Assembly: GCA_017309115.1 (NCBI GenBank)
Contig: JAFLEF010000032.1
Location: 24,010-88,009 of the forward strand
Origin: Verrucomicrobiota bacterium
GTDB lineage: Bacteria; Verrucomicrobiota; Verrucomicrobiia; Limisphaerales; UBA9464
DNA: 64,000 nucleotides
Direction: 5' to 3'
The notes beneath the pieces were generated by a model, which saw only the letters and a list, made by a program, of their open reading frames with translations, ran no database searches and had not been told where the DNA came from. Position numbers and translations under genes: made by a program. Shown in pieces: positions 16,623 through 41,933 of this stretch. Each line of letters begins with the position of its first letter. Position 1 is the first letter of the stretch.

Positions 16623-17242
16623 AACCGCGGCTCGTCGCCATCGCCGGCGGCAGCGCCTCGGGCAAGACCTGGCTGGCCCAGCGGTTGGTGGAACAGTTGG
16701 GGTCCCTGGCGACCCGGGTGTCGTTGGACGACTTCTATCGCGACCGCACGCATCTGACCCTCGCGGAACGCAAGAAGATCAATTTTGACCATCCCCGGGC
16801 GATTGATTGGGACCTGTTCGGATCGGTGCTGGAACAGATTCGCCAGGGCCGGACTTGTCCGGTTCCCCGGTATGATTTCGTGGCGTCCAATCGGGAACCA
16901 GAGCCGCGTCTGTTCGAACCGGTGCCGCTGGTCCTGGTGGATGGATTGTGGCCGCTGGTTTCGGCGGGCTTGTCCGCCCGGTACGATCTCAAGGTGTTTG
17001 TGGATTGTCCGGCGGAGCAGCGTTTGGCGCGCCGATTGGCTCGGGACACCGTGGAACGGGCCTGGCCGGCGGAGGTGGTGACCCGGCAGTTTTGGGAGCA
17101 GGTGGAACCGATGCACCAGCGGTTCGTGGAACCTCAGCGCGCGGTGGCCGATGAAATTTTGGACTCTCCGATCGCGGTGACAAATCTGCAACGGCTTGCA
17201 GATCGACTCAAAAAGCTTTCCAGTGAGGGCGCCCAAACATGA
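16619..17242 (+). CDS. Uridine kinase-like P-loop kinase
   Basis: A 207-residue kinase of the uridine kinase/phosphoribulokinase superfamily. It has a Walker A motif at residues 10-17 (GGSASGKT), a substrate region SLDDFYRD, FDHPRAIDWDLF, PRYDFVASNR and LVDGLWPL, followed by RRLARDTVERAW. These match uridine kinase, which makes UMP from uridine. Within an EPS cluster it could feed UDP-sugar supply or act on another small molecule. Start and stop both overlap neighbours by four bases, so it is translationally coupled to the flanking glycosyltransferase and sugar-transferase genes. Confidence 0.8.
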   Translation: MKPRLVAIAGGSASGKTWLAQRLVEQLGSLATRVSLDDFYRDRTHLTLAERKKINFDHPRAIDWDLFGSVLEQIRQGRTCPVPRYDFVASNREPEPRLFEPVPLVLVDGLWPLVSAGLSARYDLKVFVDCPAEQRLARRLARDTVERAWPAEVVTRQFWEQVEPMHQRFVEPQRAVADEILDSPIAVTNLQRLADRLKKLSSEGAQT

Positions 17243-17991: not shown

Positions 17992-17995
17992 TGTC

Positions 17996-19258
17996 ATGAA
18001 GGCACTCCTTATCTGCCCGGCTGACCGTACTGAAGTGGCGGTACTGGCGTTGAAGCGCCCGTTGGCTCTGATCCCCATTTTGGGCCGGAGTTTGCTGGAT
18101 CTGATGCTCGCGGATCTGGCCCATGCTGGCGTGAAGGAACTTTGGATTCTGGCGGCGGATCGGCCGGACGAAATCAGGTCGGCGGTGGGCCGGGGGGAAG
18201 CCTGGGGGTTGAAGGTGGAGGTTTTGCCGGAGACCCGGGAACTGACTCCGGAAGCTGCGCGAGCAAAATATCGCCCAGCTGGTGCGGCGGGTTGGCGGGA
18301 AGAGCCGAATGACGTGGTGGTGCTGGATCATTTGCCGGGGCGTCCCCCGGGTTCCCTGTTTACCAATTACGCGTCCTGGATCTGCGAGGTGCTGGGGCAG
18401 TTGCCGGAGGGAGCGCGTTTTCGGTTGGGGGTGCGTCAGATTTCGCCGGGCGTGTTTGTTGGATTACGCACCCGGGTGGCACCGACGGCCAAGTTGGTGG
18501 CACCCTGCTGGGTGGGCGAGAATGCCTGGATTGCGGCGGGAGCGGTGGTGGGACCGGAAGGAATTGTGGAGAGTGGTGCCTATGTGGATGAAGGGGCGGA
18601 AGTCGCCCAAAGTGTGGTGGGGCCGGAAACGTACATTGGCGTTCTGACCGAACTGCGTAACTCCGTGGCCTGGGGAAGGGGCTTGTTAAACTGGGAGTCG
18701 GGATCCTTCACGGAGGTGGTGGACGACATTCTGTTGTCCGATCTGAGCAACCGGAAATCAATTCGTGCCGAGGGTTCGTGGATGGGCCGGGTTCTGGCCG
18801 GAATGGTTCTGTTGCTCACTTTCCCCATTTTGGCGGTGGCGTGGCTTCGGCGGCCGAAGGGCCAGCCATTGTTTCTCCGACGCGAAGCGGTACGGACTCC
18901 ATGGGAGGGCCTCGATGGCACGTTTTCCCGCACGGTGGTTTACCATGAACTTAGCGGGGTTCCGGGCTTGCTGCGGCGTTGGCCGGAGCTGTGGAAGGTG
19001 CTGACCGGGGAGTTCAATTGGGTGGGCAACCGGCCGCTGACCGCCCAGCAGGCGGCGCGGTTGTCGGGTGAGTTCGAGCGGTTGTGGCTGGCGGTTCCGT
19101 CGGGGGTGGTATCGCTCGCTGATGTCGAGGGCTGTCCGGTCCCATTCGGGGACGAGGCCCGGGCGCATTCCAGCTTTTACGCGGTCCATCCGTCGCGTCA
19201 CGGCGATATTCGTATGCTGGGTCGGATGTTTGCGCGTGCGTTTTTGAACGTCTCATAG
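17996..19258 (+). CDS. NTase-like / left-handed beta-helix / degenerate sugar-transferase protein
   Basis: A 420-residue composite protein starting MKALLICPADRTEVAVLALK at the ATG at 17996. The N-terminal 100 residues resemble a nucleotidyltransferase-type Rossmann fold but lack an obvious G-x-G-T-R nucleotide motif. Residues about 150-245 show hexapeptide-like repeats (RVAPTAKLVAPCWVGENAWI, then AAGAVVGPEGIVESGAYVDE). A hydrophobic helix (about 262-280, GRVLAGMVLLLTFPILAVAW) leads to a C-terminal region that aligns with the priming transferase encoded just upstream (LWKVLTGEFNWVGNRPL versus VLRGEMSLVGPRP), but the catalytic acidic/Arg residues are not recognisable. It may be a regulatory partner or scaffold for the true transferase; this is inference. 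Confidence 0.7.
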   Translation: MKALLICPADRTEVAVLALKRPLALIPILGRSLLDLMLADLAHAGVKELWILAADRPDEIRSAVGRGEAWGLKVEVLPETRELTPEAARAKYRPAGAAGWREEPNDVVVLDHLPGRPPGSLFTNYASWICEVLGQLPEGARFRLGVRQISPGVFVGLRTRVAPTAKLVAPCWVGENAWIAAGAVVGPEGIVESGAYVDEGAEVAQSVVGPETYIGVLTELRNSVAWGRGLLNWESGSFTEVVDDILLSDLSNRKSIRAEGSWMGRVLAGMVLLLTFPILAVAWLRRPKGQPLFLRREAVRTPWEGLDGTFSRTVVYHELSGVPGLLRRWPELWKVLTGEFNWVGNRPLTAQQAARLSGEFERLWLAVPSGVVSLADVEGCPVPFGDEARAHSSFYAVHPSRHGDIRMLGRMFARAFLNVS

Positions 19259-19295: not shown

Positions 19296-19598
19296 ATGAA
19301 CATAACCTCTGAAGGCAGCACCCTGCAGGTGGCCGGCCTGGCTGAGTTGAATGCGGCCAATGCCAGCGCCTTCCGCGATCAAGTCCGGGCCGCGATCCAA
19401 CCGCAGCACGTCAACGTGCTGTTGGATTTCTCCCAAACTCGTTTCGTGGACAGCTCCGGCCTCGGCGCCCTGATTTCCATCCACAAATCCCTCTGCGGCC
19501 GGGGCGGGGTGGTCCGCATTCTTAACCCGACCCCACCGGTCCAACAGATTCTCGAGCTGACCCGCATGCACCGCATCTTTGAGGTCACTCGTTCCTAA
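19296..19598 (+). CDS. STAS-domain anti-sigma-factor-antagonist-like protein
   Basis: A single 100-residue STAS domain. The diagnostic phosphoacceptor loop is RFVDSSGLGALISIH, preceded by a beta strand (VNVLLDFSQT) and followed by GVVRILNPTPPVQQILELTR. Proteins of this type are phosphorylated by an RsbW/SpoIIAB-type kinase and dephosphorylated by a PP2C phosphatase, which toggles binding to partner proteins. Such enzymes are encoded two genes downstream. The leader upstream of the ATG is C/A-rich with no Shine-Dalgarno sequence. Confidence 0.92.
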   Translation: MNITSEGSTLQVAGLAELNAANASAFRDQVRAAIQPQHVNVLLDFSQTRFVDSSGLGALISIHKSLCGRGGVVRILNPTPPVQQILELTRMHRIFEVTRS

Positions 19599-19604
19599 AT
19601 CCAC

Positions 19605-19910
19605 ATGAGGACCATTTCACAGGGGGAGACCTTATTGTTTACCGGGTTCGACAATCTCAGCGGGGTCAATGCGGGATTGTTCCGGGAATTCCTGCGGGCC
19701 ACGTTGCGGCCTGAGCATCGCTTCGTGGAGGTGGATCTCCAGCGAGCCACCTTCATGGACAGCGACGGTCTGGGGGCCGTGGTTTCGGCTCACAAAGCCG
19801 TGGCCGGACGAAATGGCGGGGTTCGCTTGAAGGGAGCGCCACCCATGGTGCGGGAACTGTTTCGAATCACCCGGCTCGACACCCTGGTCGAGTTCGTACC
19901 CCAGGCTTGA
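19605..19910 (+). CDS. Second STAS-domain protein, variant phosphoacceptor loop
   Basis: A 101-residue single-domain STAS protein starting 6 bases after the first one ends. Its loop reads TFMDSDGLGAVVSAHK, with Asp where the first STAS protein has Ser (DSDG versus DSSG). This might mimic the phosphorylated state or move the phosphosite to the preceding Ser. The rest of the fold is intact (FVEVDLQRA, GVRLKGAPPMVRELFRITRL). Its stop overlaps a possible TTG start of the next gene. It is probably a paralogue of its neighbour and a second client of the same kinase/phosphatase. Confidence 0.9.
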   Translation: MRTISQGETLLFTGFDNLSGVNAGLFREFLRATLRPEHRFVEVDLQRATFMDSDGLGAVVSAHKAVAGRNGGVRLKGAPPMVRELFRITRLDTLVEFVPQA

Positions 19911-19912
19911 TC

Positions 19913-21706
19913 ATGGCGCCCAGCATCAGTTCCTCGCCTGGGCGGGTACTGACGCTCAGTTTTCCGTGCGATCTGGCGGCGGTCCGGGAGGCCGCCCGCC
20001 AGTTCCGCACGTTTCTGAACGATCAGGGGGTCTCCGCCGAGGAGTTGGATGCCTGGGAACTGATCGTCTCCGAGGCAGGCAATAACGCGGTGGAATACAC
20101 CCGCCCGGAATCTGTCGGACTGCCGATCGAAGCCACCGTCTGGGTGACCCACCTCAACGTCGAACTCCAGGTTCGCGACCATACCCCGGGATTTGATTTG
20201 CCGGAGGACACTCCGTTACCCGACTTCGAGGCGGAAGGCGGGCGCGGGCTGTTCCTGATGCGGTCGCTGTCCGATCAACTGCGCTACCTCCGAAGCCCGG
20301 GGGACAACTGCCTGATTGTGCGCAAGGGCCGGTCGGGAATTTCCCCCGCCCGGGAATCAGCGGGGGATTCCCTCCAGATGGCGATCATGGAGTCGACGTT
20401 GCACACCCTCACCGAGGAGTTGGCTGCGTCCTATGAAAGTTTGTCGGCAATCTTTCGATTCACTGCCGAGTTGAACCGCGGCGGAGCGGGCACTGAGTTT
20501 GTCGACCGCTGGTTGCGGGAATTGATGATGGTGGCGTCGGCGGATTGGTTTGTGCTCCGTCTTTCCAACGACACCACGACTCAACTGCGGGTGGAGGGTA
20601 TTTCCCGGGCGGACCTGCGGTTCGAGCCGCTGGATCTGCGGGAAGGCCAGCGCTTGGAATCGTCGGTGGAATTGCAGGCGGTGATGGGACGTCAGGACAT
20701 GTGGTTCGACGCCGCGTCTCCGACGGCTGCGGGTGATCCCTTGACCCAATTCGGGGTCGCGCTGGCTGGCTTTGCACATCCGATTTATGTGAATGAGGAA
20801 CTGGTCGGTGTCCTGGCAATTGGCCGGTACGCGAGCCACCAGTCGTTCACCGCCGGACAAGTCAACATCATCCACACCTTCGCCGACTTCCTGGGCATCC
20901 AGATTCGCAACGCCCGGATTCAGGAGGGGTATCTGCGTTCGCGGTTGGTCACACGCGAGCTCGAGATCGCCGCGAGCATTCAGCGCTCGCTGCTGCCTGA
21001 ACGGCTGCCGGAGCCTCCGGGATTTCGTCTGGCCGGCTATTCGGAAAGCGCCAACAAAGTGGGCGGGGATTTCTTTGACGTCATTCAAATTGAGAATCAG
21101 CAGCATCGCGGGTTGCTGCTGGTGATTGCCGATGTGATGGGCAAGGGCGTGCCGGCCGCGATGTTTGCGGCGATCTTCCGGAGTCACTTGCACGCCCTGA
21201 TCAGTCTGTCGGGTCTGCCGGGTAAGTTGATGTCCTGGCTGAACCGGGCGTTGCATCCGGATCTGGCCCGGGTGGACATGTTCGTCACCGCGCAGATCGT
21301 TTTCCTGGACTGGATGGACAATGAGATCCGGATTGCGTCGGCCGGGCATTGTCCGCTGCTGATTGCCGCGAAGGAATTGGGAATCATGGAGGTGACGGCG
21401 GATGGTATGCCGTTGGGCATCGATTTGCAGATGGAGTTTGAAGAGAAGTGTCTGCCCATGCCGGAGACACTGCGGCTGGCGATGCTGACGGACGGATTGA
21501 TTGAAGCGCGTTCTCCGGAAGGAGAGTTGATGGGGATCGACCGGGTGAAGTCCTGGATGGCGGATTCGATCCGGCGCAATGACACGGCCCAGACTTCCTG
21601 CGAATCGCTGGTGGAACTGGCTCGAACGTTTCAGGCGGATGCTCCTGCTGCCGACGATCTCACCCTTCTGGTGATCACCCGGCAGCCCGAAGTTGAACTC
21701 AGTTGA
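19913..21706 (+). CDS. Partner-switching regulator: RsbW-like kinase, GAF, SpoIIE-type PP2C phosphatase
   Basis: A 597-residue protein carrying both opposing activities of a partner-switching system. Residues about 10-135 form a GHKL serine-kinase/ATPase domain with an N-box (VSEAGNNAVEYT), G1 (VRDHTPGFD) and G2 (EGGRGLFLM). A GAF domain covers about 185-325. The C-terminal SpoIIE-like PP2C domain (about 345-595) has QRSLLPERLP, KVGGDFFDV, IADVMGKGVPAAM, SAGHCPLL, LTDGLIEAR and DDLTLLVI, including the metal-binding Asp residues. It should phosphorylate or dephosphorylate STAS proteins according to the GAF signal. The ATG at 19913 is used; a TTG at 19907 would overlap the previous stop. A receiver gene follows at once. 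Confidence 0.92.
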   Translation: MAPSISSSPGRVLTLSFPCDLAAVREAARQFRTFLNDQGVSAEELDAWELIVSEAGNNAVEYTRPESVGLPIEATVWVTHLNVELQVRDHTPGFDLPEDTPLPDFEAEGGRGLFLMRSLSDQLRYLRSPGDNCLIVRKGRSGISPARESAGDSLQMAIMESTLHTLTEELAASYESLSAIFRFTAELNRGGAGTEFVDRWLRELMMVASADWFVLRLSNDTTTQLRVEGISRADLRFEPLDLREGQRLESSVELQAVMGRQDMWFDAASPTAAGDPLTQFGVALAGFAHPIYVNEELVGVLAIGRYASHQSFTAGQVNIIHTFADFLGIQIRNARIQEGYLRSRLVTRELEIAASIQRSLLPERLPEPPGFRLAGYSESANKVGGDFFDVIQIENQQHRGLLLVIADVMGKGVPAAMFAAIFRSHLHALISLSGLPGKLMSWLNRALHPDLARVDMFVTAQIVFLDWMDNEIRIASAGHCPLLIAAKELGIMEVTADGMPLGIDLQMEFEEKCLPMPETLRLAMLTDGLIEARSPEGELMGIDRVKSWMADSIRRNDTAQTSCESLVELARTFQADAPAADDLTLLVITRQPEVELS

Positions 21707-22218: not shown

Positions 22219-23391
22219 ATGAAACCGCTGCTGCCGCTTTTCATCATGGTGGACGCGTGCGGCTGGGAGATCATCCGCAACGATCCGTTCGGAAAGGACT
22301 TCGCGCCGAATCGCAAACGGCTCGAGAGTGTCTTTGGGTACAGTTCCACCTGTGTGCCGTCGATCCTGTCGGGACGCTGGCCGGTGGAACATCGCAACTG
22401 GTGTTACTTCGTTTACGACCCGGCCAATTCGCCGTTTCGCTCGCTGAAGATTCTGCGCTGGTTGCCGACGGCCATCACCAGTCGCCGGATCTTTCGCCGA
22501 TGGCTGACGAAGTTCGTCAAGGTGCAGCTCAAGTTCCGCGGCTACTTCGATCTCTACAACATTCCCTTCCGGCACATTTCGCTCTTCGACTTCACCGAGA
22601 AGAAGAGCCCGCTCAAGCCGAAGGGCATGAACCGGGGAACCAACATCTTCGACTTTCTTGAAGAGAAGAAGATCCCGTACTTCGTCAGCGATCCGGCCCG
22701 AACCGAAGAACAGAACCGGGACGAATTGATTCAGCGCGTGGGCCGCGAGGAGATTGATTTCGCCTTCATGTACTGGGCTGGCCTCGACGGACTGCTGCAC
22801 ATGGTGGGGAACCAATCGCCGGAAGTGCCGGCGCGACTGCGAATCTACGAGCAGTGGATCGGTCAATTGCTGGCGGCGGCGAAAGGACACTACGAGGAGG
22901 TTCGCCTGTATGTCTTCAGCGATCACGGCATGGCGAACTGCGATGAACTCCTCGACCTCAAGTCGAAGATCGAGGCCTTGCCGCTGAAAATGGGTGAGGA
23001 CTACGCAGTGGTGTACGATTCGACGATGGCCCGCTTCTGGTTCCTCCGTCCTGGAGCGCGCGAACCCATTACCCAGGTGCTCCAGCAGGTGCCTCAGGGT
23101 CGGATCCTTCCCGACGACGAACTGGAACGAATGCGGGCCAAGTTCGAGGACCGCTACTTCGGAGAACTGATTTTTCTCGTGAAGGAGGGCGTCCTGATTG
23201 TGCCCAGTCACATGGGGGAACGTCCCATTCGGGCGATGCACGGGTATCATCCGACTGATCCCCACAGCTATGCGAGCCTGCTCACGAATCAGGCGGCGAT
23301 CCCGGAGGATGTCACGGCCATTCCCCACATTTATCGGCTGATGGAGCGGGACGCCGCCCTGGCCCGGCAGAGGAACCAAGGGAAGTCATGA
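22219..23391 (+). CDS. Alkaline phosphatase superfamily phosphodiesterase-like protein
   Basis: A 390-residue protein of the alkaline phosphatase superfamily, close to type I phosphodiesterase/nucleotide pyrophosphatase members. Metal-site motifs are LFIMVDACGWEII (first Asp), FGYSSTCVPSILSG (Thr/Ser nucleophile region), YVFSDHGM and MHGYHP. There is no signal peptide or membrane helix, so it appears cytoplasmic. In EPS clusters such proteins may trim or transfer phospho-substituents or nucleotide-activated precursors; the real substrate is unknown. The 120-base gap upstream is C/A-rich. The stop overlaps the next glycosyltransferase gene by ATGA. Confidence 0.8.
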   Translation: MKPLLPLFIMVDACGWEIIRNDPFGKDFAPNRKRLESVFGYSSTCVPSILSGRWPVEHRNWCYFVYDPANSPFRSLKILRWLPTAITSRRIFRRWLTKFVKVQLKFRGYFDLYNIPFRHISLFDFTEKKSPLKPKGMNRGTNIFDFLEEKKIPYFVSDPARTEEQNRDELIQRVGREEIDFAFMYWAGLDGLLHMVGNQSPEVPARLRIYEQWIGQLLAAAKGHYEEVRLYVFSDHGMANCDELLDLKSKIEALPLKMGEDYAVVYDSTMARFWFLRPGAREPITQVLQQVPQGRILPDDELERMRAKFEDRYFGELIFLVKEGVLIVPSHMGERPIRAMHGYHPTDPHSYASLLTNQAAIPEDVTAIPHIYRLMERDAALARQRNQGKS

Positions 23392-24671
23392 GCGCATCCC
23401 TAGCCCGAGGCATTGTTCATGTTCCCCGTCGTTTTGTGGCGGAGGAGTGGGGTGGCACCGAGACGGTGATCCTGGAGATCTCGCGCCAGCAGCAGCGGGC
23501 CGGACAACGTCCAGTGATCATGACCTCAATGGCCCTGGCTCGGCAGCGGGAAGAGTCGATCGCCGGGGTTCCCGTTCGACGTTATCCCTACTGTTATCCA
23601 TTCCTGGGCCTGACCGACGCCGATCGGGCGGCCATGGACAAGAAGGGGGGCAATCTGCTGTCACTCTCCTTCTTTTGGGCGCTGTTGCGGGAGCCGGATG
23701 TTCGCCTGTTTCACGCGCATGCGTTGAAACGATTGGGTGGGGAAGTCCGGACGGCGGCGCGTCTGCGCAAGAAGCCGTTTGTGGTGACGCTGCATGGCGG
23801 GGTGTTCGACGTGCCGGAGGCGGAGTTGGAAGCGATGCGCCAGCCGATTGGCAACAAGGTGGAGTGGGGCAAGCCATTTGGGGCCTTGTTCGGATCGCGT
23901 CGGGTGTTGGAGGACGCTGATCAGGTGATTTGTGTGGGTCAGTCGGAACGCGACCGGGCGCAGAAGGAACTGACCCATGATCGCGTGGCGTATCTTCCGA
24001 ATGGCGTCGATTGCGCTCGGTTTGCCGAAGGTTCCGGAGCTTCCTTCCGGGCGAAGCACGGAATTCCAGCCGAGGCCTTCCTGGTGCTCAATCTCAGCCG
24101 GATTGATGCGCAGAAGAATCAGATGCTGTTGCTGGAGGCCTTCGCCCAGTTCCAACGGAATCAGCCGGGGGCCTTTTTGGTGTTAGTCGGACCCGAGACG
24201 CAACCCTCGTACGCCGCCAAGTTGCGGGAGTTCATCGCGGCGCAGCAGCTGGGGAACTGCGTTCGACTGCTGCCCGGATTGCGCAATGACAATCCCGACC
24301 TCATTCACGCGTTTCACGCCTGTGACGTCTTTGTGTTGCCGTCCATGCACGAGCCGTTTGGAATTGTGGTGCTCGAAGCTTGGAGTTCCGGTCGGGCGGT
24401 GATTGCGAGTCGGGTGGGTGGATTGCAGGCGTTGGTTCGGGACGGCGAGACGGGGCTGTTCGTGGATCCGAATGCGGCCACTGCGGCGGCCGATCTGGCG
24501 GGTCGATTGCAGCGGTTGGCTATCGACCCGGGATTCCGAAAGCAGCTGGCCGAGGCAGGACGCGTCGAGGCCAGGTCGCGCTACGATTGGAAGGAGATCA
24601 ACCGGCAGCTCGAGGAGCTTTATCAGAAGGCGGAACACCACGCGGCCCGGAGTCGCTCAGCCACTTCCTAA
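23388..24671 (+). CDS. GT4-type glycosyltransferase
   Basis: A 427-residue GT-B glycosyltransferase. The N-terminal half has EEWGGTETVILEISRQQQRA, the typical GG-[ST]-E acceptor loop, and LFHAHALKRLGGE. The C-terminal half has VLNLSRIDAQKNQMLLLEAF, LVLVGPETQPSYAAKL, DVFVLPSMHEPFGIVVLEAW and SRVGGLQALVRDGETGLFVD, which is classical GT4 donor binding with an E-x7-E motif. The start overlaps the stop of the upstream phosphodiesterase-like gene by four bases, and the flippase gene begins 2 bases after it. Sugar specificity cannot be predicted. Confidence 0.92.
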   Translation: MSASLARGIVHVPRRFVAEEWGGTETVILEISRQQQRAGQRPVIMTSMALARQREESIAGVPVRRYPYCYPFLGLTDADRAAMDKKGGNLLSLSFFWALLREPDVRLFHAHALKRLGGEVRTAARLRKKPFVVTLHGGVFDVPEAELEAMRQPIGNKVEWGKPFGALFGSRRVLEDADQVICVGQSERDRAQKELTHDRVAYLPNGVDCARFAEGSGASFRAKHGIPAEAFLVLNLSRIDAQKNQMLLLEAFAQFQRNQPGAFLVLVGPETQPSYAAKLREFIAAQQLGNCVRLLPGLRNDNPDLIHAFHACDVFVLPSMHEPFGIVVLEAWSSGRAVIASRVGGLQALVRDGETGLFVDPNAATAAADLAGRLQRLAIDPGFRKQLAEAGRVEARSRYDWKEINRQLEELYQKAEHHAARSRSATS

Positions 24672-31794: not shown

Positions 31795-33171
31795 TCAGAC
31801 CTTGGTTGGGGTGCGGGCTGCGCGGGCTTCGCGGCGCATGATTTCCAGTCGGGCGGTGATGGCGAAGAGAACCATCCAGAGGGTCAGATTCCGTGGTTGA
31901 ACCAACACCCGTTCGAGCGTGCTTTGGACGTAGTTCAACGCGCAACCCGTGGCGATGCCGAGCGCGAGGCAACGGCGAAAGGAATGGGGAAAGAAGAGGA
32001 GCGCCCGGAAATTGCGCCAGAGGCCCACCAGGATCATGACCAGGTACGAGATCAGCCCGGGATATCCGGTTTCGCCCAGCAGCAGATAGTAATGACTCTC
32101 GACCACGGCGTTGGGCTTGGACTCGTCCACCTTCATGCCCCGGCCGCGGATCCATTCATAGTAAACGTCGGCGTAGGGATACGGCGGATTCACGACCAAG
32201 GCGTAGTTGTTCCAGCCGATGCCCAGGGCGCGGTCGGCCGCCATTTCTTTGCAGGCCGCGTTCATGACTTCACGCAACTCGCTGCTGGCGGTATTCCCCG
32301 AGTCGTTGAAGCGGGCAATGATGGTGTCGATGGTCAGCAACAGACCCAGGGCTCCGATGACGGCCATCGCCGCGGTCATGCCGAGTCGGCGGGCGGTGGG
32401 TTTTTCGAGCACGCTCAGACCCAGAATGCCGATGGCGCCGGCTCCGAACATGGCGAGGCCGGCGCGGGAGAGGGTGGACTGCACGATAATCGCCGAGGCG
32501 AGAAAACCCCAGAGCACGAAATTGGCGCCCTTGAAGGGTGGGCCGAGGGCGGAGGCCAGCATCACCATGCCGATCAGAATGGAGTACATGGCCAGCGGGT
32601 TTTGGTGCTCAAAGGTGCCGCGGACCTGGTACATGCCTTCGAGATACTTGAGTTTCAGCACCACCAGGAACTGCCACGTCATGGTGAAGGCCATCACCCG
32701 CAGGAAGAATTGGAGATCCTCGTCGGTGCGCAGGTAGTTGAAGGCGGCGATCATAATGACCGACGCGAAGATCATCTTGTGGGCCGCCATCCACGACAGG
32801 TTCGGTTGGGGCGCGTTAATGATCGAAAGCAGGGAGACGCCGCAGTAGAGCAGGTACCAACCGAGTCCGGGAGGCAGCCAACGAAAGCCCTTGGGCTGTC
32901 CGGTCCAACGCGCGAAAATCAGAGCGATCGCCAGCGCGTGGTTGAAGTAAAAATGGTATCCCTTGGTGTGCCCTCGATACGTCTCGATCGAGCCCAGGGT
33001 CAGTCCCCAGTTTCCCGGCCCCAGAAGACCGTTGATGGTCATGAAACACATCAAGCCGAACACCCAGCGCTGGCCGTTGGGATTGTTCTTCAGGGCGATT
33101 CCCCCGATGGGAGCGGCCACGAAGAACAGCGGCAGAATGATCGCCAGCTTGATGAAATCGGCGGAACTCAA
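31795..33171 (-). CDS. wzy: Wzy-like O-antigen polymerase/ligase family membrane protein
   Basis: A 458-residue inner-membrane protein with about 11-12 hydrophobic helices and a large soluble loop in its second half (about residues 285-365), with ALGIGWNNYALVVNPPYPYA, VVESHYYLLLGETGYPGLIS and a conserved H-x-x-x-L-x-x-x-x-E-x-G-like region. This is the signature of the O-antigen ligase/polymerase superfamily, which joins lipid-linked repeats in the periplasm. The reading frame opens with a TTG at 33171; a stop lies a few codons upstream and no ATG is near, so the start is uncertain. It is encoded opposite to the rest of the EPS cluster. Divergent promoters probably share the 124-base gap with the next gene. 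Confidence 0.85.
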   Translation of the reverse strand: MSSADFIKLAIILPLFFVAAPIGGIALKNNPNGQRWVFGLMCFMTINGLLGPGNWGLTLGSIETYRGHTKGYHFYFNHALAIALIFARWTGQPKGFRWLPPGLGWYLLYCGVSLLSIINAPQPNLSWMAAHKMIFASVIMIAAFNYLRTDEDLQFFLRVMAFTMTWQFLVVLKLKYLEGMYQVRGTFEHQNPLAMYSILIGMVMLASALGPPFKGANFVLWGFLASAIIVQSTLSRAGLAMFGAGAIGILGLSVLEKPTARRLGMTAAMAVIGALGLLLTIDTIIARFNDSGNTASSELREVMNAACKEMAADRALGIGWNNYALVVNPPYPYADVYYEWIRGRGMKVDESKPNAVVESHYYLLLGETGYPGLISYLVMILVGLWRNFRALLFFPHSFRRCLALGIATGCALNYVQSTLERVLVQPRNLTLWMVLFAITARLEIMRREARAARTPTKV

Positions 33172-33295: not shown

Positions 33296-34795
33296 ATGAA
33301 CGGTACTGAACGTAACCAATCGCCGGTGGGCGCCCGGAAGGCACCGGTGGCCATTCTGGGCGTGCCCTTCGACAACGTGACGATGGCGGAAACGATTGAG
33401 CTGATCGCCGAAATGGTGGCCTCGCGTCAGCCTCACTATCTCGCGACTGCCAACGTTGATTTCGTGGTGCAGGCGAGTGCCGACATCGAGTTGCGCCGGA
33501 TTCTATTCGATTCCCATCTGGTGCTGTGTGACGGCATGCCCTTGGTTTGGGCTTCGAAGCAATTGGGCAATCCCCTCCCGGAACGGGTGACCGGTTCGGA
33601 TCTGGTGCCGCGGCTCCTTGCGGAATCCGAGCGTCGGGGCTGGCGCGTGTATTTTCTGGGAGGGACCGAAGAAAGTGTCGCCCAAGCCGCTGCCAAGACG
33701 TTGGAAAAACATCCCCGGTTGAATCTGGTGGGCGCGTATTCTCCCCCGTTTCGGCCCCTGCTTGAAATGGACCACAGCGACATTCTTCGCCGCGTCACCA
33801 ATGCTGCGCCGGACATCCTGCTGGTGGCCTTCGGATGTCCCAAACAGGAAAAGTGGATCAACATGCACTATCGGCACCTGGGCGTCCCGGTGAGTGTTGG
33901 GGTCGGCGCGACCATCGATTTCCTCGCCGGGACCTTCAAGCGCGCACCAGTGTGGATGCAGCGCACCGGAACAGAATGGATCTTCCGAATGCTGCAGGAA
34001 CCGCGGCGCTTGGTGAAACGCTACACCAAGGATCTATTCATTTTCGGCCGGGCCATTCTCCGGCAGGCGCGGGAACTGGGGTCGCGGCCACCGCCGCCAG
34101 CCATCAGCGAGGCGGAACGGATTCCCCGGGTGGAGGCCGCGCCGCCCGCGGCCCGCGGGGTTCAGGTCCGAGTGGTCCCGGAGCGTCTGGACGCGGCGTC
34201 AGCCGCGCAGGTTCGGGAAGATTGGCTGGCGGCTCTGGATGCCGGTCCCTTGATTCTGGAGTTTGTGGGCTGTCGGTTTGTGGACAGCACGGGCGTCGGG
34301 TTGTTGGTGCGGTTGCGGAAGCGGGCGCGCGAGGTGTCGCGACCCTTTCTGCTCGCGGGCGCCCCGGATCCCGTAGTGCGGGCGCTCGAGTTGATGAAGC
34401 TGGACTCCTTCTTTGATCGGGTGGCGGACGTGGCCGCGGGCCAACAACAGATTCTGGGGCGCCCCCCGAACACGCCGCCGGCTTCGGTGCTTTCGAGTCA
34501 ACCGGCCGATGCCGAAGTGTTGCACTGGCACGGTGAGGTAACCTCGGCGACGATCAGCATTTTGGCGGAATCCACCGAGCCCCGTCTGAGCAACGTCGAG
34601 AGCGGACGGACGGTAACGATTGATCTTTCCGGCGTGCCATTTGCGGACAGTTCGGGCGTGGGATTCATGGTCCGGTTGCGCAAGCGGTCCTGGCAACGCG
34701 GGGTGAAGGTGGTGTTCATCTCGCCCGGACCAGCGGTGGCCAACGTGCTTCGACTCACCAAACTCGACGAATACCTCCTGGGCAAAAAACTGTGA
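33296..34795 (+). CDS. WecG/TagA/CpsF glycosyltransferase fused to two STAS domains
   Basis: A 499-residue fusion. Residues 1 to about 265 form a WecG/TagA/CpsF (GT26) glycosyltransferase with YLATANVDFVVQA, LVLCDGMPLVWASK, ERVTGSDLVPRL, LLVAFGCPKQEKWI, VGVGATIDFLAGTFKRAP and EWIFRMLQEPRRLVKRY, so all usual signature blocks are present. After a Pro/Ala linker (about 266-285) come two STAS domains, one around CRFVDSTGVGLLVRLRKR (about 325-342) and one around VPFADSSGVGFMVRLRKR (about 446-463). Both keep the DS[ST]G loop. STAS proteins are normally regulated by Ser/Thr phosphorylation, so the fusion suggests phosphorylation-controlled glycosyl transfer or docking to the partner-switching module encoded 11 kb upstream. 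Its stop overlaps the GTG start of the next gene. Confidence 0.93.
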   Translation: MNGTERNQSPVGARKAPVAILGVPFDNVTMAETIELIAEMVASRQPHYLATANVDFVVQASADIELRRILFDSHLVLCDGMPLVWASKQLGNPLPERVTGSDLVPRLLAESERRGWRVYFLGGTEESVAQAAAKTLEKHPRLNLVGAYSPPFRPLLEMDHSDILRRVTNAAPDILLVAFGCPKQEKWINMHYRHLGVPVSVGVGATIDFLAGTFKRAPVWMQRTGTEWIFRMLQEPRRLVKRYTKDLFIFGRAILRQARELGSRPPPPAISEAERIPRVEAAPPAARGVQVRVVPERLDAASAAQVREDWLAALDAGPLILEFVGCRFVDSTGVGLLVRLRKRAREVSRPFLLAGAPDPVVRALELMKLDSFFDRVADVAAGQQQILGRPPNTPPASVLSSQPADAEVLHWHGEVTSATISILAESTEPRLSNVESGRTVTIDLSGVPFADSSGVGFMVRLRKRSWQRGVKVVFISPGPAVANVLRLTKLDEYLLGKKL

Positions 34796-35937
34796 AAATC
34801 GGCTTCAGTACCACGATGATTCAGCGCGGCAAGACGGGCGTCGCCCAATATGTCTTTGCCTTGTTGAAGGCGATGATTCCCCTGTCCGCGGGGCACGAGT
34901 TTCACCTGTTCGTGCTGGAGGAGGATCGGTCGTTGTTCGACTTCGCCGGCGACGCAATGAAGATCGTGGCAGTCCCGGAAACGGAACGCCCGGCGGTGCG
35001 CAATGTGCTTTGGCATCAGAGGACCCTGCCCGGGCTGATTCGGGAGCGGGGGTTGGACGTGATGCATGTGCCCAGCTACCGGCGGTTGATCTGGCCGCGT
35101 CCGTGTGCCCGGGTGGCGACGATTCACGATCTCGCGCCCTTCCATGTGCGCGGCAAGTACGACTGGAAGCGGATGATTTATGGTCGGGTGATTGTGAAGC
35201 GCCTGGCCCGCCGGCAGGAGGCGATCATGGCGGTGAGTGAAAACACTGCTCGCGATCTGGAGCAGTTCTTTGGGTTGGGCCGTGATCGGGTCACGGTGGT
35301 TTGGAACGGGATTGACCATGCCCGCTTCCAGCCGGGCGAGGCGGCCACTGCGAAGACGGGCGTGGCGCAGCGCTGGGGACTCGATCGGCCGTTTTTTCTG
35401 TACGTGTCCCGGTTGGAACATCCCGGGAAAAATCATGTTCGGCTGATTGAGGCGTTTGATCAGTTCAAGGCGGCCACCGGATCCAACTGGCTGCTGGCCC
35501 TGGGTGGGAGCGACTGGCATGGCGCGGAGGCCATTCATGCGGCGGCCAAGTCCGCCCGGTATTCGGCCGACATTCGGTTCCTCGGATTTGTGGATGATCC
35601 GTCGCTCCCGGAACTTTATCGGGCGAGTGACGCGTTTGTGTATCCGTCGCTCTTCGAAGGCTTCGGATTTCCGCCGATTGAAGCGATGGCGTGCGGATGT
35701 CCGGTCATCAGTTCCGCCCGTGGTTCCCTGCGGGAAGTGGTGGCGGATGCGGCCGAAATCGTGGAACCGGAGTCGGTGACCGACATCGCGGGTGCCCTGA
35801 CCCGGCTCGCGACGGAAGCACCTCGCCGCAACCGATTGGTTGCCACCGGCTTCAAGAACGCGCAACGATTCCGTTGGGACCGCTGTGCGGCCGAAACGCT
35901 CGAGATCTACGAGCGGGCGCGCCGAGCCCGGACCTAA
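34792..35937 (+). CDS. GT4-type glycosyltransferase (GTG start)
   Basis: A 381-residue GT-B glycosyltransferase reading from a GTG that overlaps the stop of the STAS-fused glycosyltransferase (GTGA). The N-terminus KIGFSTTMIQRGKTGVAQYV, then MHVPSYRRLIWPRPCARVAT and IHDLAPFHV, is typical of the mannosyl/rhamnosyl-type GT4. The C-terminal blocks are FFLYVSRLEHPGKNHVRLIE, LLALGGSDWHGAEAI, IRFLGFVDDPSLPELYRASD, FVYPSLFEGFGFPPIEAMAC and GCPVISSARGSLREVV, including the E-x7-E region (EGFGFPPIE). Donor sugar is unknown. The PCP-OPX fusion gene follows after 23 bases. Confidence 0.92.
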   Translation: MKIGFSTTMIQRGKTGVAQYVFALLKAMIPLSAGHEFHLFVLEEDRSLFDFAGDAMKIVAVPETERPAVRNVLWHQRTLPGLIRERGLDVMHVPSYRRLIWPRPCARVATIHDLAPFHVRGKYDWKRMIYGRVIVKRLARRQEAIMAVSENTARDLEQFFGLGRDRVTVVWNGIDHARFQPGEAATAKTGVAQRWGLDRPFFLYVSRLEHPGKNHVRLIEAFDQFKAATGSNWLLALGGSDWHGAEAIHAAAKSARYSADIRFLGFVDDPSLPELYRASDAFVYPSLFEGFGFPPIEAMACGCPVISSARGSLREVVADAAEIVEPESVTDIAGALTRLATEAPRRNRLVATGFKNAQRFRWDRCAAETLEIYERARRART

Positions 35938-35960
35938 ACCCAAATGAAGGTGACAGCGCC

Positions 35961-38900
35961 ATGAGTTCACCTGAGACAACCACCACTCCGACGCCCCCCG
36001 CGGCTCCTGCTGGAGGTGGGCTGGGTGCGCTCATCCCTTTTGATCCACTGCGGTTGGCGTTGGCCGTGTGGAAGGGCAAGTGGTGGGTGGTGGCGGCAGC
36101 GCTGCTGTTGGGTGTGCCGGCGGTGGCCCTGGGTTACTGGCGGTTAGCCACGAGTTACACCGTCAGCGTGCAGCTGATTCGGCGCGATCTGCCCAACAGT
36201 TTTCGGGTGAGCGATCTCGGGGAAGCGTTCAAGCCCCGGCAGCTGTCGGTGGCGAGCATTGTCTCGATCATGCGCTCGCCGAGCCTGCTGACCCGGGTGG
36301 GCGGGGAAGTCAAACCCCGCATCGGAGCCGGGACGTTGCTGCGTTCCCTGACCATCACGCCGGAAAAGAACACCGACCTCATCACCGTCACCCTGCGGGC
36401 CGATCGGAGCGCCCCAGCCACGGTCGAGTTAATCAACCGTTATGCCAGCGGGGTTGTGGAGTTGACCAGCAGTCTGCAGCAGCAGGAGGCGGCGGAACTG
36501 GATCGGTTCCTTCGGGAGCAGCTGGGTCGGGCTGATTCCGAGTATGGCGCGATCACCGCCGAGATTTTGCAGTTCACGAAGGAAACCGGCTTTTACAGCG
36601 CTGAGAAGGAGGTTGAGGCGTATCTGCGAGAACTGGGCGAAGCGGAATCGCGGCTCCAGACTGCGGCCCTGGAGAGTGAGACGGTACGGTTTCAAATTGA
36701 AGGATTGGAACGAGAGTTGGCGCGACAGAATCCGTTGCTGTTGGAACTCAGCACCGCCAAGGACCAGTTGAAGACCCTGTTGGTCCGCTACACCGATGCC
36801 AATCCGCTGGTGATGGAACAGAAGGCGCGAGTTCAGGCCTTGGAGTTGGAAGTCGCGAATTCGACGAATTCCGTGCAGGAGTTTCAGCCCGGCGCCAACA
36901 CCGTCGCCAACGCGATGTTCACCGACCTGGTATCATTGCGGGCGCAGCGGTTGGCGCTGGCGCAACAGGAGAAGCCACTGAAGGACCGATTGGCGGCCGT
37001 TCAGGTGAAACTGGCGGCGATGCCCCAGAAAGACATGCAGTTCGCGCGTCTGCGGGCGAAGCAACAGGCCTTGGAGACCACGCGATCCCTCCTGGCCGCC
37101 CGGCAACGCGAGGCTCAGTTGTTCTCCGAAAGTTCTCCCGGGTATTACCGGCTGTTCGCCCCGGCGACTCCCGACGATGTGGAGGTCAGCAGCAAGAAGC
37201 AGAAGTTGATCATTCTCGGGTTGGCCGCGTTGTTGGCCGGAGCGGGATTGGCCACGCTCGGGTTGTGTGTGCGGGAGGCCCTGGACACCCGGGTGATTTC
37301 GCCAGCGGACATGCGCCGGGTGGCGGGGGCGCCGATGTTGGGATGGCTCGGCGACCTTGGCCTGATGAAGCCGGATCAATTGGCGCTTTGGCGTTTTCGC
37401 ACCTGGTCGGCCCTGTTTCGCACCGCCGGCCGGGCAGACAACCGCACTTTGGTCGCCGGGATTGTTTCCTTGGGATCCGGGGAAGGTCGTTCCACCTGGA
37501 TCCGGTTGTTGGAGGAAGCCGCCGCCGAGCGGGACTTCCGAACCCTCATTCTCAGCAACGGTGTTTCGGCGGAAGAAGCCGTCCGGGCGGTGTCGCTTCC
37601 GAATGCGTTGCAAGATCCCACCGCAATTACCCAACGACTCGAACGGGAGCACACCGCCCGGGTGATCCTCACGATCCCGAACGAGTGGCAATGGGACAGC
37701 GAGCAGCGCGGGCAATGGATTCTGGCCTTGCGCGAATGGCAGAGATTGCCCCGGTTGGCTTTATTCCTGGAACTGCCGCCAGCGCGTCGCTTGGACACAC
37801 TGTTGTTGGCGGAAACGCTGCCTCAGTTGCTGTGGCTCAGCCGTTCAGGCGCCTCCGAACAGGACGAGGTCAAGGAAGTCATCCGAACCCTGAAGTCGGG
37901 CGATGGGCGGGTCAGCGGAGTTCTCGCCAATTGGGTTCCCGTCATTTTCGACAAACTCCCCGACCTGGGCCGATTCGGTCTTCTGCTCCTGTTGGGCTGG
38001 GGATTGTCGTGGGGGCTGCCCGTACAAGCCCAGGACCCAGCCCCAACCAATTCCTTTTTGTCAGCCACCGCTCGGGGGCCGCAGTTGGCGGGCTGGCAGC
38101 AGCGATTGACCCTGGGCGCCGGGGATCAGGTCAATCTCATGGTCTACGGGCACAAGGATCTGACGCGGACGGAAGTGGCGATCGGTCCGGATGGTCGGAT
38201 CAGTTATCTCCAAGCTCAGGGAATCCAGGCTTCCGGGCTGACCATTGATGAATTGCGGGAAAAGCTGACGGAGGAGCTTTCGAAGTATTACCGCAACGCC
38301 CGGGTGGTGATCACGCCGGCCTCCTTTCGGAGCAAAAAATACTTCCTGCTGGGCACGGTCATGGATCGGGGTGCGTATCCCTTGGATCGCCCCATGACCA
38401 TTATTGAGGCGATTGCCCGGGCTCGCGGTATTTCGACGGGATTGTTAGAGCAGAACACGGTGGAGATTGCCGATCTTCCCCGGGCGTTCTTGGTGCGGAA
38501 TCAAAAGCGGGTTCCGGTGGATTTCGTAAGGCTGTTTCAGCAGGGAGATCTATCTCAGAATATTCAGTTGGAACCGGACGACTACATTTACTTCCCGTCT
38601 TCGGTGCTGAACGAAGTGTATATTCTCGGCTCAGTCTCCAGCCCAGGCACCGTTGGGGTCACGGAGAGTTCGACAGTGGTGGGAGTACTCACGGTTCGGG
38701 GCGGATTCACCGATAAGGCGTATCGACAACGGGTGCTGGTGGTCCGTGGCTCGTTGAGTCAGCCGGAGACGTTTGTCGTCAACGTGGCCGAGATTCTTCG
38801 CGGCAATACCCTCGACTTCCGGCTCAAGCCAAAGGACATCGTTTACGTCACCGACCGGCCTTGGGCTCGGGCGGAAGAGTTGCTGGATATGGCCATCTCG

Positions 38901-38987
38901 GCCTTCGTGACCACGGCGATGGCGACGTGGGCGGGTCAGAATATTGGTCCATTCATCACCGAGCCCATCATCCCGTCTACCCGATGA
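35961..38987 (+). CDS. Fused polysaccharide co-polymerase (Wzz-like) and outer-membrane export (Wza-like SLBB) protein
   Basis: A single 1008-residue polypeptide joining two normally separate EPS-export components. Residues about 28-445 are a PCP/Wzz part: TM1 (about 41-61), a long periplasmic coiled coil, and TM2 (about 414-436). A cytoplasmic BY-kinase-like domain follows, with a degenerate Walker A at about 503-513 (SLGSGEGRST, Arg in place of the catalytic Lys). A third hydrophobic segment (about 671-692, FGLLLLLGWGLSWGLPVQAQ) resembles an internal signal peptide with a VQA-type cleavage site. The rest (about 700-1005) is OPX-like: a polysaccharide-export domain (LTLGAGDQVNLMVYG) and SLBB repeats (YFLLGTVMDRGAYPLDRPMT, VYILGSVSSPGTVGV). 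No in-frame ATG/GTG precedes the signal-like helix. It may be cut by signal peptidase. Confidence 0.92.
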   Translation: MSSPETTTTPTPPAAPAGGGLGALIPFDPLRLALAVWKGKWWVVAAALLLGVPAVALGYWRLATSYTVSVQLIRRDLPNSFRVSDLGEAFKPRQLSVASIVSIMRSPSLLTRVGGEVKPRIGAGTLLRSLTITPEKNTDLITVTLRADRSAPATVELINRYASGVVELTSSLQQQEAAELDRFLREQLGRADSEYGAITAEILQFTKETGFYSAEKEVEAYLRELGEAESRLQTAALESETVRFQIEGLERELARQNPLLLELSTAKDQLKTLLVRYTDANPLVMEQKARVQALELEVANSTNSVQEFQPGANTVANAMFTDLVSLRAQRLALAQQEKPLKDRLAAVQVKLAAMPQKDMQFARLRAKQQALETTRSLLAARQREAQLFSESSPGYYRLFAPATPDDVEVSSKKQKLIILGLAALLAGAGLATLGLCVREALDTRVISPADMRRVAGAPMLGWLGDLGLMKPDQLALWRFRTWSALFRTAGRADNRTLVAGIVSLGSGEGRSTWIRLLEEAAAERDFRTLILSNGVSAEEAVRAVSLPNALQDPTAITQRLEREHTARVILTIPNEWQWDSEQRGQWILALREWQRLPRLALFLELPPARRLDTLLLAETLPQLLWLSRSGASEQDEVKEVIRTLKSGDGRVSGVLANWVPVIFDKLPDLGRFGLLLLLGWGLSWGLPVQAQDPAPTNSFLSATARGPQLAGWQQRLTLGAGDQVNLMVYGHKDLTRTEVAIGPDGRISYLQAQGIQASGLTIDELREKLTEELSKYYRNARVVITPASFRSKKYFLLGTVMDRGAYPLDRPMTIIEAIARARGISTGLLEQNTVEIADLPRAFLVRNQKRVPVDFVRLFQQGDLSQNIQLEPDDYIYFPSSVLNEVYILGSVSSPGTVGVTESSTVVGVLTVRGGFTDKAYRQRVLVVRGSLSQPETFVVNVAEILRGNTLDFRLKPKDIVYVTDRPWARAEELLDMAISAFVTTAMATWAGQNIGPFITEPIIPSTR

Positions 38988-40060
38988 AGTCCTGGGGATT
39001 CATTCTTGGCGCGTTGCTGCTTGGCCTCGGCTGGTTAGCGTCCGGATGCGCCAGCCTGGGGCCTCGATTTGATCCGTACTCGACCAACACCGTCGCCACA
39101 GCCACCAACCTGTTAGTGGGCTCGGTGGTTACGAATCAGCTGAGCCAGGATTTCCTCAAGGTACCCGATGCGCCCTTTCGTTTGGGGCCCGGAGATCGGC
39201 TGGACATTGAAGTATTGGGGGATGAAGCCGGACCAGTGGCGACCTTCATCGGTCCCGATGGGAAGCTCTACTTCGGTTTGCTCGCCGGCCAAAAAGTCTG
39301 GGGCTTGACGCTTGCTGAAACCAAGAAGTTGCTCGAGACCAACCTCGCGACGTACCTCCGGGAGCCTCAGGTAGCGCTCACCCTTCGAGCCGTGGAGAGT
39401 CAACGGGTGTGGGTCATGGGTCGCGTGAACACACCGGGCATTTATTCGTTGGACGGACCCATGACGGTGTTGGAGGCGATCACCAAGGCGGGTGGTCTAT
39501 TCACCTCGCGCTTTTCCGGAACCACTGAGGAACTCGCCGACCTCCATCACAGCTTCATCGTGCGCCGGGGCCAGTATCTGCCGGTCAACTTCCACCAGTT
39601 GATCCGGGAGGGCGACACGAGTCAAAACATCTACCTCGAACCGGATGACTTCATCTATCTGCCGTCGTCTCTTTCGACTGAAGTCTTTGTGTTGGGAGCG
39701 GTCATGCAGCCCCGGGCCGTGGCCTTCAAGGATCAGGTGACCCTGGTGTCAGCCATTGCCAACGCCCGCGGTCTGGCGCCTGACGCCCGGGCCGGACAAA
39801 TTGCCGTGATTCGAGGTTCGCTCACCACGCCGTCCATCGCGCTGGTCAACTTTCAAGACATCGTGACCGGACGTGCTCCGGACATTCGACTCCAACCGCG
39901 GGATATCGTGTATGTGCCCGTCTCGCCGTACTCCACGTTGGAGAAATATTTGCAGTTGGCCGTGAACACGTTTGTTCGGACCGTGGCGGCCAACGAGGGT
40001 GGTCGGGCAGTGGACCCGAACTACCAAGGTACTGGCACGAGCATTCCGATCGGCCAATAG
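38984..40060 (+). CDS. Polysaccharide export outer-membrane lipoprotein (Wza-like)
   Basis: A 358-residue lipoprotein of the OPX/Wza family with a signal peptide ending in the lipobox LASGC (ALLLGLGWLASGC). It has a polysaccharide-export domain (RLGPGDRLDIEVLGDEAGPV) and two SLBB domains (VWVMGRVNTPGIYSLDGPMT, EVFVLGAVMQPRAVAFKDQV). The C-terminus (QYLQ- to ANEGG-like stretch) has amphipathic potential. It is a second OPX paralogue next to the OPX half of the fusion upstream (shared motifs LQPRDIVYV and LKPKDIVYV). The start overlaps the fusion's stop by four bases. Confidence 0.93.
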   Translation: MKSWGFILGALLLGLGWLASGCASLGPRFDPYSTNTVATATNLLVGSVVTNQLSQDFLKVPDAPFRLGPGDRLDIEVLGDEAGPVATFIGPDGKLYFGLLAGQKVWGLTLAETKKLLETNLATYLREPQVALTLRAVESQRVWVMGRVNTPGIYSLDGPMTVLEAITKAGGLFTSRFSGTTEELADLHHSFIVRRGQYLPVNFHQLIREGDTSQNIYLEPDDFIYLPSSLSTEVFVLGAVMQPRAVAFKDQVTLVSAIANARGLAPDARAGQIAVIRGSLTTPSIALVNFQDIVTGRAPDIRLQPRDIVYVPVSPYSTLEKYLQLAVNTFVRTVAANEGGRAVDPNYQGTGTSIPIGQ

Positions 40061-41928: not shown

Positions 41929-41933
41929 GCAAG

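Follow-up and report, generated by a model that had tools for sequence, protein, structure and literature searches.

We analysed a 64,000-nucleotide stretch of the genome of a Verrucomicrobiota bacterium of the order Limisphaerales (assembly GCA_017309115.1, contig JAFLEF010000032.1, positions 24,010 to 88,009 of the forward strand), hereafter the window. Within its exopolysaccharide (EPS) cluster, one gene encodes a glycosyltransferase (GT) of the WecG/TagA type followed by two STAS domains, hereafter the fusion. Two stand-alone STAS genes (A and B) and a gene for a predicted Ser kinase/phosphatase, hereafter K, are located 12 kb upstream within this cluster, and the co-occurrence of the fusion with K makes the fused GT a candidate downstream partner of this switch. 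The two gene groups comprise:

33296..34795, + strand: fusion of a WecG/TagA-type GT and two STAS domains, 499 aa (open reading frame, Pfam, AlphaFold2, Foldseek)
33344..34024, + strand: GT domain, residues 17-243 (alignment to 7mpk, conservation)
33932..34081, + strand: C-terminal appendage of the GT, residues 213-262 (7mpk alignment, AlphaFold2 model)
34163..34459, + strand: STAS1, residues 290-388, with acceptor-type S331 at 34286-34288 (Pfam, loop, model)
34481..34780, + strand: STAS2, residues 396-495, with acceptor-type S452 at 34649-34651 (Pfam, loop, model)
19296..19598, + strand: stand-alone STAS protein A, loop FVDSSGLG
19605..19910, + strand: stand-alone STAS protein B, loop FMDSDGLG
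19913..21706, + strand: K, with HATPase_c_2 (RsbW-like), GAF and SpoIIE-type PP2C domains (Pfam)

The fusion frame starts with ATG and is uninterrupted, sharing its last 4 bases with the following gene. Pfam placed Glyco_tran_WecG on residues 74-243 (E 2.8e-63) and, C-terminal to the GT, STAS (E 2.3e-27) and STAS_2 (E 3.5e-26) on two stretches each. The protein matches the WecB/TagA/CpsF family profile (PF03808, 213.1 bits against a cut-off of 27.4) and TIGR00696 (140.8 bits, cut-off 69), and its STAS part matches TIGR00377, of the anti-sigma factor antagonist type (72.8 bits, cut-off 53.45). The AlphaFold2 model (mean pLDDT 86.8, pTM 0.85) contains a GT fold and two STAS folds, with a weakly modelled linker (residues 269-286 below pLDDT 50). 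Foldseek matched the GT part to TagA/TarA entries (7mpk, 5wb4; TM 0.93-0.95 over the target) and a STAS domain to TM1442, chains of SpoIIAB:SpoIIAA entries and RsbV entries. The original prediction, made from the letters alone, had read a complete WecG/TagA/CpsF GT followed by two STAS domains in one frame, which Pfam, the model and Foldseek bear out. The DS[ST]G loops that it called intact read FVDSTGVG (S331) in STAS1 and FADSSGVG (S452) in STAS2, and each serine opens a helix in the model (residues 331-346 and 452-467).

Alignment to TagA (7mpk, E 5.1e-41) pairs fusion residues T51, N53, D79, R97, Q184 and E185 with TagA T37, N39, D65, R83, Q167 and E168, and appendage residues R231 and R238 with TagA R214 and R221. 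The TagA residues that matter for function, and their roles, follow the accessible text of PMC6493773, where D65 is the proposed base; statements from this and the other papers cited below likewise refer to their accessible parts. In the model, the appendage region forms helices at residues 219-224, 227-234 and 236-262. The best reading is that the fusion is a WecG/TagA enzyme, predicted to be catalytic, that would extend the lipid-linked primer of a secreted polysaccharide.

Scanning genome contigs located a relative at 61 loci (L numbers denote loci and G numbers genomes; some genomes, such as G101 and G154, stand in both samples under two handles). At 36 of the 61 the matched frame passes from the GT into STAS, with L004, L017 and L018 reaching a contig end before a complete STAS2; L037 is broken off inside the GT, and in the remaining 24 the match is confined to the GT. 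The main alignment comprises the window and 33 of the GT-into-STAS loci, leaving out L004, L017 and L018. A broken frame, which the original prediction had named as grounds for dropping the idea, was not what we found: the frame is continuous in these 33 relatives and in further genomes, so the fusion is not a sequencing error. An artefact of sequencing or assembly was likewise ruled out, as the architecture occurs in several dozen genomes, some on multi-million-base contigs. Labels among the relatives include Verrucomicrobia (some Limisphaerales or Pedosphaera), Kiritimatiellaeota, Desulfonatronospira, Fibrobacteres, Oscillochloris and, for some, uncultured bacterium. The contig of L018 is labelled Akkermansia muciniphila and carries EPS genes and a fusion like those of the window's group; a binning error is possible.

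The wider genome search suggested with the original prediction recovered the architecture in the order, the phylum and a second phylum. Across the order, 104 of 146 genomes match at E 1e-20, of which about 35 carry fusions and nearly all others the GT part only; this count excludes G066 (fragments), includes G140 on a GT fragment at a contig end, and takes in G050 and G076 with one STAS domain each. Across Verrucomicrobiota, 36 of 387 genomes match at E 1e-90, and one or two STAS domains are seen in 34, a count that excludes G369 (a GT4-WecG protein without STAS) and G481 (ending at a contig edge). In Chloroflexota, 14 of 301 genomes match, 13 with fusion-length frames (G578, with a 282 aa frame, being excluded); the 12 fusion loci fetched, which do not include G179 (locus L039), all show two STAS regions. 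A single origin of all fusions is suggested by a tree of 81 fusion and 26 plain GT rows, with few plain WecG rows outside Bacillota, three label changes needed, SH-like approximate likelihood ratio test support only and long-branch warnings. The tree leaves out the duplicates L204, L205 and L168, the window copy L001 and rows covering fewer than 170 positions of the GT profile.

The residues of interest are widely kept. In an alignment of 38 sequences, window included, the S331 position is Ser in all 38, and the S452 position is Ser in 36 and Thr in one (L019) of the 37 sequences reaching it. In 38 further loci (34 outside the order; L187 and L197 show no STAS), D79, R231 and R238 are all kept and the S331 position is Ser in 32. 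All 12 Chloroflexota loci keep D79, R231 and R238 and have Ser at both acceptor positions.

Several variant arrangements turned up in these searches. Frames of 234-248 aa resembling the fusion's STAS pair and lacking a GT occur in G127, G032, G106 and G079, small genomes of the same order. L187 encodes a WecG domain fused to a GT4 transferase, with no STAS (9576-11963, - strand), and L195 a GT2-WecG-STAS protein (2521-5121, + strand). Next to a fusion gene, L169 (10869-12119, - strand) and L184 (8120-9262, + strand) each carry a frame (417 and 381 aa, respectively) whose STAS domain is C-terminal and follows about 280-310 residues without a Pfam match.

The genes at 19296-21706 encode STAS proteins, a HATPase kinase and a SpoIIE-type PP2C together, so that a partner-switching gene set is present in the window. 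The original prediction had pointed to a kinase/phosphatase of the right type in the cluster, and 19913-21706 indeed reads as HATPase_c_2, a weak GAF match (23.7 bits against a cut-off of 22.4) and SpoIIE-type PP2C; it had not mentioned the two stand-alone STAS genes directly 5' of K. A STAS gene immediately precedes K in all of the 30 best-scoring K loci. At least 29 of the 30 K sequences keep E56, N60, D91, G95, G112 and G114 in the HATPase half and D388, D391, D409, G412, G414, D529, D583 and D584 in the PP2C half. From the SpoIIAB and SpoIIE families we take these to be the ATP- and metal-binding residues, and K may retain both predicted activities. In the source genome (7.53 Mb, 95.3% complete), WecG matched twice, STAS on six stretches and PP2C twice; the EPS cluster accounts for four of these STAS stretches and one PP2C match, which makes a chance placement of K near the fusion unlikely.

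Fusion and K tend to occur in the same genomes. In the 146 genomes of the order, K matched in 42 at E 1e-30, of which 40 were counted (G008 and G019 included on partial matches; G051 and G136, with the PP2C half only, excluded). Both genes are found in 27 genomes, the fusion only in eight, K only in 13 and neither in 98 (Fisher p 5.8e-13, shared descent ignored; 26/8/14/98 without G140). At family level the corresponding counts are 16/5/6/35 (p 2.8e-6, again ignoring shared descent). In families f11, f15, f35 and f52 the fusion and K occur in precisely the same members, and in f1, f8, f13 and f22 some members carry just one of the two. We also checked for K in 34 genomes representing 35 of the 37 loci L003-L039 (without L018 and L037). 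Leaving out seven distant genomes (G171-G174, G176, G177, G179), K was present in 25 of the 27 genomes giving closer fusion loci, in two as partial matches, and was not found in G153 and G155.

The neighbourhoods add to this association. A gene for an EPS phosphodiesterase adjoins K at 13/20 loci in fusion genomes versus 1/10 in non-fusion genomes (Fisher p 0.007, loci cut by contig ends scored as no). Fusion and K lie within about 12 kb of each other in nine genomes: five with an intact GT, at 9.5-12 kb (G000, G068, G101) or 10-12 kb (G152, G169), and four with an altered GT, described below, at 0.5-1.3 kb (G161, G164, G165, G178). In Chloroflexota, separate STAS, PP2C and HATPase genes stand within 5 kb of the fusion in nine of the 12 fetched loci (L218-L223, L227-L229), as they do in L039. 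One of these, L219, encodes Bac_transf, WecG-STAS-STAS, nucleotidyltransferase-hexapeptide-Bac_transf, STAS, GAF-PP2C, HATPase, GT2 and a flippase; the order hexapeptide-Bac_transf, STAS, phosphatase/kinase is therefore common to the window and this operon-like group. In Verrucomicrobiota outside the order, a PP2C gene lies near the fusion in five of 34 loci (L172, L180, L182, L183, L186), four of them with a HATPase match, and in L172 a protein with receiver, PP2C and HATPase domains (14888-16996) is encoded near a fusion. The co-occurrence with HATPase-PP2C proteins that the original prediction had put forward as a check thus held in the order and in Chloroflexota and was weak elsewhere in Verrucomicrobiota over the 10-20 kb covered.

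In some relatives the STAS pair sits on an altered GT. Seven loci (L021, L022, L024-L027, L038; degA) lack the catalytic residues: N53 is replaced by Gly, the appendage arginines are gone and, in the six readable there, D79 is replaced by Glu and R97 is lost. All seven retain DSTG in both STAS domains. In the AlphaFold2 model of L038 (mean pLDDT 86.0, pTM 0.76) the GT fold is kept and a single helix replaces those of the appendage. Pairwise dN/dS, at nearly saturated dS, is 0.06-0.21 in six degA GT domains versus 0.05-0.09 in four intact relatives, and by this comparison the degA GT domains are under purifying selection. Two further copies (G161:C30 and G165:C16; degB) carry T51M and N53D and adjoin K, on a branch separate from degA and next to L019/L023; R97 and R231 are lost in G161:C30 and kept in G165:C16. 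Because both degB copies retain D79 and R238, their GT is probably impaired rather than surely dead. Since degA and degB keep the STAS pair, it serves some purpose even where sugar transfer is absent or impaired.

Altered copies lie beside K in L022, L038, L124 and L125; among degA loci, K is within 1.3 kb in L022 and L038 and on another contig for L021 and L025. Response-regulator genes stand beside altered copies in L021, L022 and L124; L021 and L022 additionally have a MASE1 hybrid kinase gene, and L124 a sigma-54 activator gene further along. G156 and G161 each carry both an intact and an altered copy; the altered copy of G165 accompanies one with G80D. No other fusion was found in six of the seven degA genomes (draft assemblies), and we therefore rejected the idea that pseudo-GTs invariably occur as extra copies alongside an intact one.

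The two halves of the altered copies have separate histories. The degA set was defined from GT residues before the STAS tree was built, and the comparison used 17 chosen rows, two with long STAS branches. In the GT tree the seven degA rows form one clade (100/100). In the STAS tree they do not, and enforced monophyly is rejected (approximately unbiased test, p 6.7e-6): L025 groups with L013 (81/85), the intact copy in its own draft genome, and L026 groups with L028 (99/94), which comes from a different genome. The GT data reject both pairings (p 6e-53 and 1.6e-39, respectively). Third-codon identity between L013 and L025 is 0.67 in STAS1, 0.75 in STAS2 and 0.55 in the GT; between L013 and L028, both intact, it is 0.51, 0.60 and 0.64. 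The simplest reading of these few draft-genome sequences, in which the L013/L025 pairing is not strongly supported, is that the STAS part was exchanged between intact and pseudo-GT genes, which would fit a shared binding partner.

The EPS cluster that holds both gene groups comprises genes for a GT4, a uridine kinase-like protein, Bac_transf, a hexapeptide/Bac_transf protein, STAS A, STAS B and K, then for a phosphodiesterase-like protein, a GT4, a MATE-like flippase, further transferases and a pyruvyl transferase, and then for a Wzy-like protein on the opposite strand, the fusion, a GT4 and Wzz/Wza-like proteins. Its other features include:

15363-16622: GT4 glycosyltransferase
17239..17991, + strand: initiating sugar-phosphate transferase (Bac_transf)
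17975..19258, + strand: protein with weak hexapeptide and Bac_transf matches, immediately 5' of the STAS/K genes
22219..23391, + strand: type I phosphodiesterase-like protein, neighbour of K
23388..24671, + strand: GT4 glycosyltransferase
31795..33171, - strand: O-antigen ligase/Wzy-like membrane protein, divergent from the fusion (E 1.1e-6, 28.9 bits, below the curated cut-off of 31.7)
34792..35937, + strand: GT4 glycosyltransferase overlapping the fusion by 4 bases, the conserved next neighbour
35691..38987, + strand: Wzz-like chain-length protein and Wza-like export protein in a single frame
38861..40060, + strand: second Wza-like export protein
40549-41979: sigma-54 activator gene downstream of the cluster

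The GT4 neighbour adjoins the fusion in 18/18 close loci with an intact GT and downstream DNA; in L023, which carries G80D, it was not found next to the fusion. The single Wzz-Wza frame recurs in nine fusion loci (L003, L005, L006, L009, L010, L011, L012, L013, L028), and the two frames are separate in L008, L014, L016 and L019. A 455 aa frame without a Pfam or NCBIfam match (28194-29561, + strand) has relatives in many of the fetched EPS clusters, within the order and beyond. Elsewhere in the window, one frame (8162-10945, - strand) combines weak metallo-beta-lactamase-type nuclease matches with an ATP-dependent DNA ligase.

We regard it as fairly probable that a partner-switching module controls the fusion enzyme directly, through its two STAS domains, and thereby a committing sugar transfer. 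WecG/TagA enzymes place a sugar onto a lipid-linked primer, a committing step, and TagA is active as a membrane-bound monomer with a folded appendage, which is required, and inactive as a dimer (PMC6493773). In Caulobacter, HfsJ, of the same family, is inhibited by HfiA through residues near the HfsJ C-terminus (PMC3900383). In the mechanism we propose, the fusion would add sugar to the primer and its two STAS domains would serve as phospho-receivers: the HATPase half of K would phosphorylate the STAS serines and the PP2C half dephosphorylate them, the GAF domain would read a signal that sets the balance between the two, and the stand-alone STAS proteins would compete for K. The phosphorylation state would then determine whether K or another partner docks on the STAS pair, and docking would gate the GT, most simply via the appendage directly ahead of STAS1; because the STAS pair hangs on this appendage, such docking could open or close the enzyme. 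What the analysis does show is the architecture, the intact catalytic and acceptor residues, the co-occurrence in the order, the synteny in Chloroflexota and part of the order, and the differing STAS and GT histories of the pseudo-GT copies. From these we infer phosphorylation by K, partner exchange and an effect on activity, including its direction.

Several observations weigh against this proposal. In the draft assemblies of the order, fusion and K lie on different contigs in 24 of the 27 both-positive genomes, on which count a rule that K always stands beside the fusion was rejected, and K was not found in eight of the 35 fusion genomes. Because 13 genomes of the order carry K and no fusion, K has other work too. 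No PP2C gene was found in 29 of the 34 Verrucomicrobiota loci outside the order (10-20 kb fetched), and the STAS/PP2C/HATPase trio was not seen within 5 kb in three of the 12 Chloroflexota loci (L224-L226). The acceptor sites also vary: among the 38 further loci, two of them without STAS, the STAS1 serine is replaced by Ala in L199, L200 and L202 and by Ile in L175; outside the order STAS1 often reads W-x-S-L-E-L-G rather than DSxG; and the residue before the STAS2 serine in Chloroflexota is Ala or Ser, not Asp. Finally, because the STAS pair is kept on GTs without catalytic residues (seven degA) or with two altered active-site positions (two degB), control of the enzyme cannot be its only use. 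The altered copies favour some sensing role beside enzyme control, with the GT fold sensing and the STAS pair reporting.

The STAS pair might instead be a mere tether, free of phospho-control, that keeps the GT complexed with other EPS proteins. STAS domains belong to larger assemblies elsewhere (SLC26 and MlaB, the latter presumably a transporter part, are among the matches), and both the frequent lack of a DSxG loop in STAS1 and the scarcity of nearby PP2C genes outside the order (5/34 loci) would suit this role. A tether accounts less readily for Ser at S331 in 38/38 and Ser or Thr at S452 in 37/37 aligned sequences, or for the kinase and phosphatase genes that accompany the fusion in the order and in Chloroflexota, and we consider it unlikely. 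We judge equally unlikely a reversed flow of information, with the GT fold as a sensor of a sugar nucleotide or lipid-linked sugar and the STAS pair as the output that would titrate K and thereby change transcription. It gains from the purifying selection on six degA GT domains (dS near saturation), from the altered copies beside K or response-regulator genes, from the sigma-54 activator genes following the altered copy in L124 and the EPS cluster in the window, and from the review PMC8256260, which in the part available words the SypA output as transcription. The active site is nonetheless intact in most copies examined, each of the 18 close loci that have an intact GT and sequence downstream lies in the EPS cluster, PMC10120452 places SypA action below transcription, and no sigma factor gene was noticed near K, with no search aimed at sigma factors made.

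The pseudo-GT copies could also be decoys or heterodimer partners that keep the intact GT in an inactive dimer. Like the inactive TagA truncation (PMC6493773), degA lacks the appendage helices, and intact and altered copies occur together in G156 and G161, as do an altered and a G80D copy in G165. The six degA genomes that gave no other fusion also gave no match to the EPS-cluster GT4 neighbour at E 1e-40, although these drafts may be incomplete; a decoy would often have no target to inhibit, and we give this explanation very little credence. A more tentative extension of the sensing role, which we rate as possible but rather doubtful, is that the WecG/TagA fold became a signalling domain. Fused enzymes would have duplicated and two branches altered the active site, wholly losing it in degA and changing two conserved positions in degB. 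The STAS pair would have stayed, and in degA it would have gone on swapping sequence with intact copies. The pseudo-GTs, whose genes neighbour those for STAS proteins, kinase/phosphatases or response regulators, would read levels of sugar nucleotides or lipid-linked sugars, or would compete for the kinase that the enzyme also uses, and polysaccharide synthesis and gene expression would share one phospho-switch. The retention of D79 and R238 in degB lowers the odds of this reading.

Direct partner switching on the enzyme, the reading we prefer, has parallels in known systems. TagA/TarA, WecG and HfsJ (WecB/TagA/CpsF, GT26) have the GT fold, catalytic residues and C-terminal appendage in common with the fusion; unlike it, they have no STAS domains in the accessible parts of their descriptions. 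HfsJ is also under post-translational control, by HfiA, a separate small protein, whereas the fusion itself carries its STAS domains. The acceptor serine, HATPase kinase and SpoIIE-type PP2C recall SpoIIAA/SpoIIAB/SpoIIE and RsbV/RsbW/RsbU, whose canonical output is a sigma factor; in the window the acceptor is fused to an enzyme. The HATPase-GAF-PP2C order of K differs from that of SypE, which we take to have a central response regulator. In Vibrio fischeri, the STAS protein SypA and the Ser kinase/phosphatase SypE control polysaccharide by partner switching, with the SypA target described as unknown (PMC10120452, PMC4517449), and act below transcription (PMC10120452). SypA (105 aa) is a separate STAS protein, whereas in the window the STAS pair belongs to a polysaccharide enzyme. 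An enzyme is the target of partner switching in SiaABCD of Pseudomonas aeruginosa, where a PP2C and a kinase balance phosphorylation of the antagonist-like SiaC (PMC7647112), which binds and activates SiaD (PMC8457831); here the enzyme is a diguanylate cyclase, and SiaC is a separate protein phosphorylated on Thr. A GT and STAS in one protein are described for All4160 of Anabaena PCC 7120, linked to heterocyst envelope polysaccharide (PMC8256260), with one N-terminal STAS domain, according to that review, rather than two C-terminal to the GT.

Partner switching on polysaccharide, partner switching on an enzyme and a GT-STAS protein are thus already known. No description of the WecG-STAS-STAS architecture was found in the literature searched, most subscription journals lying outside the search, so it could be published. 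The matching kinase/phosphatase genes that often accompany the fusion in two phyla suggest that production of polysaccharide (slime) is switched at the enzyme itself. A STAS acceptor naturally fused to a polysaccharide enzyme, in two phyla and often beside a kinase/phosphatase, also names a candidate target class for the question of what SypA acts on. If the proposal is true, partner switching would reach beyond sigma factors and a cyclase to include a committing sugar transfer.

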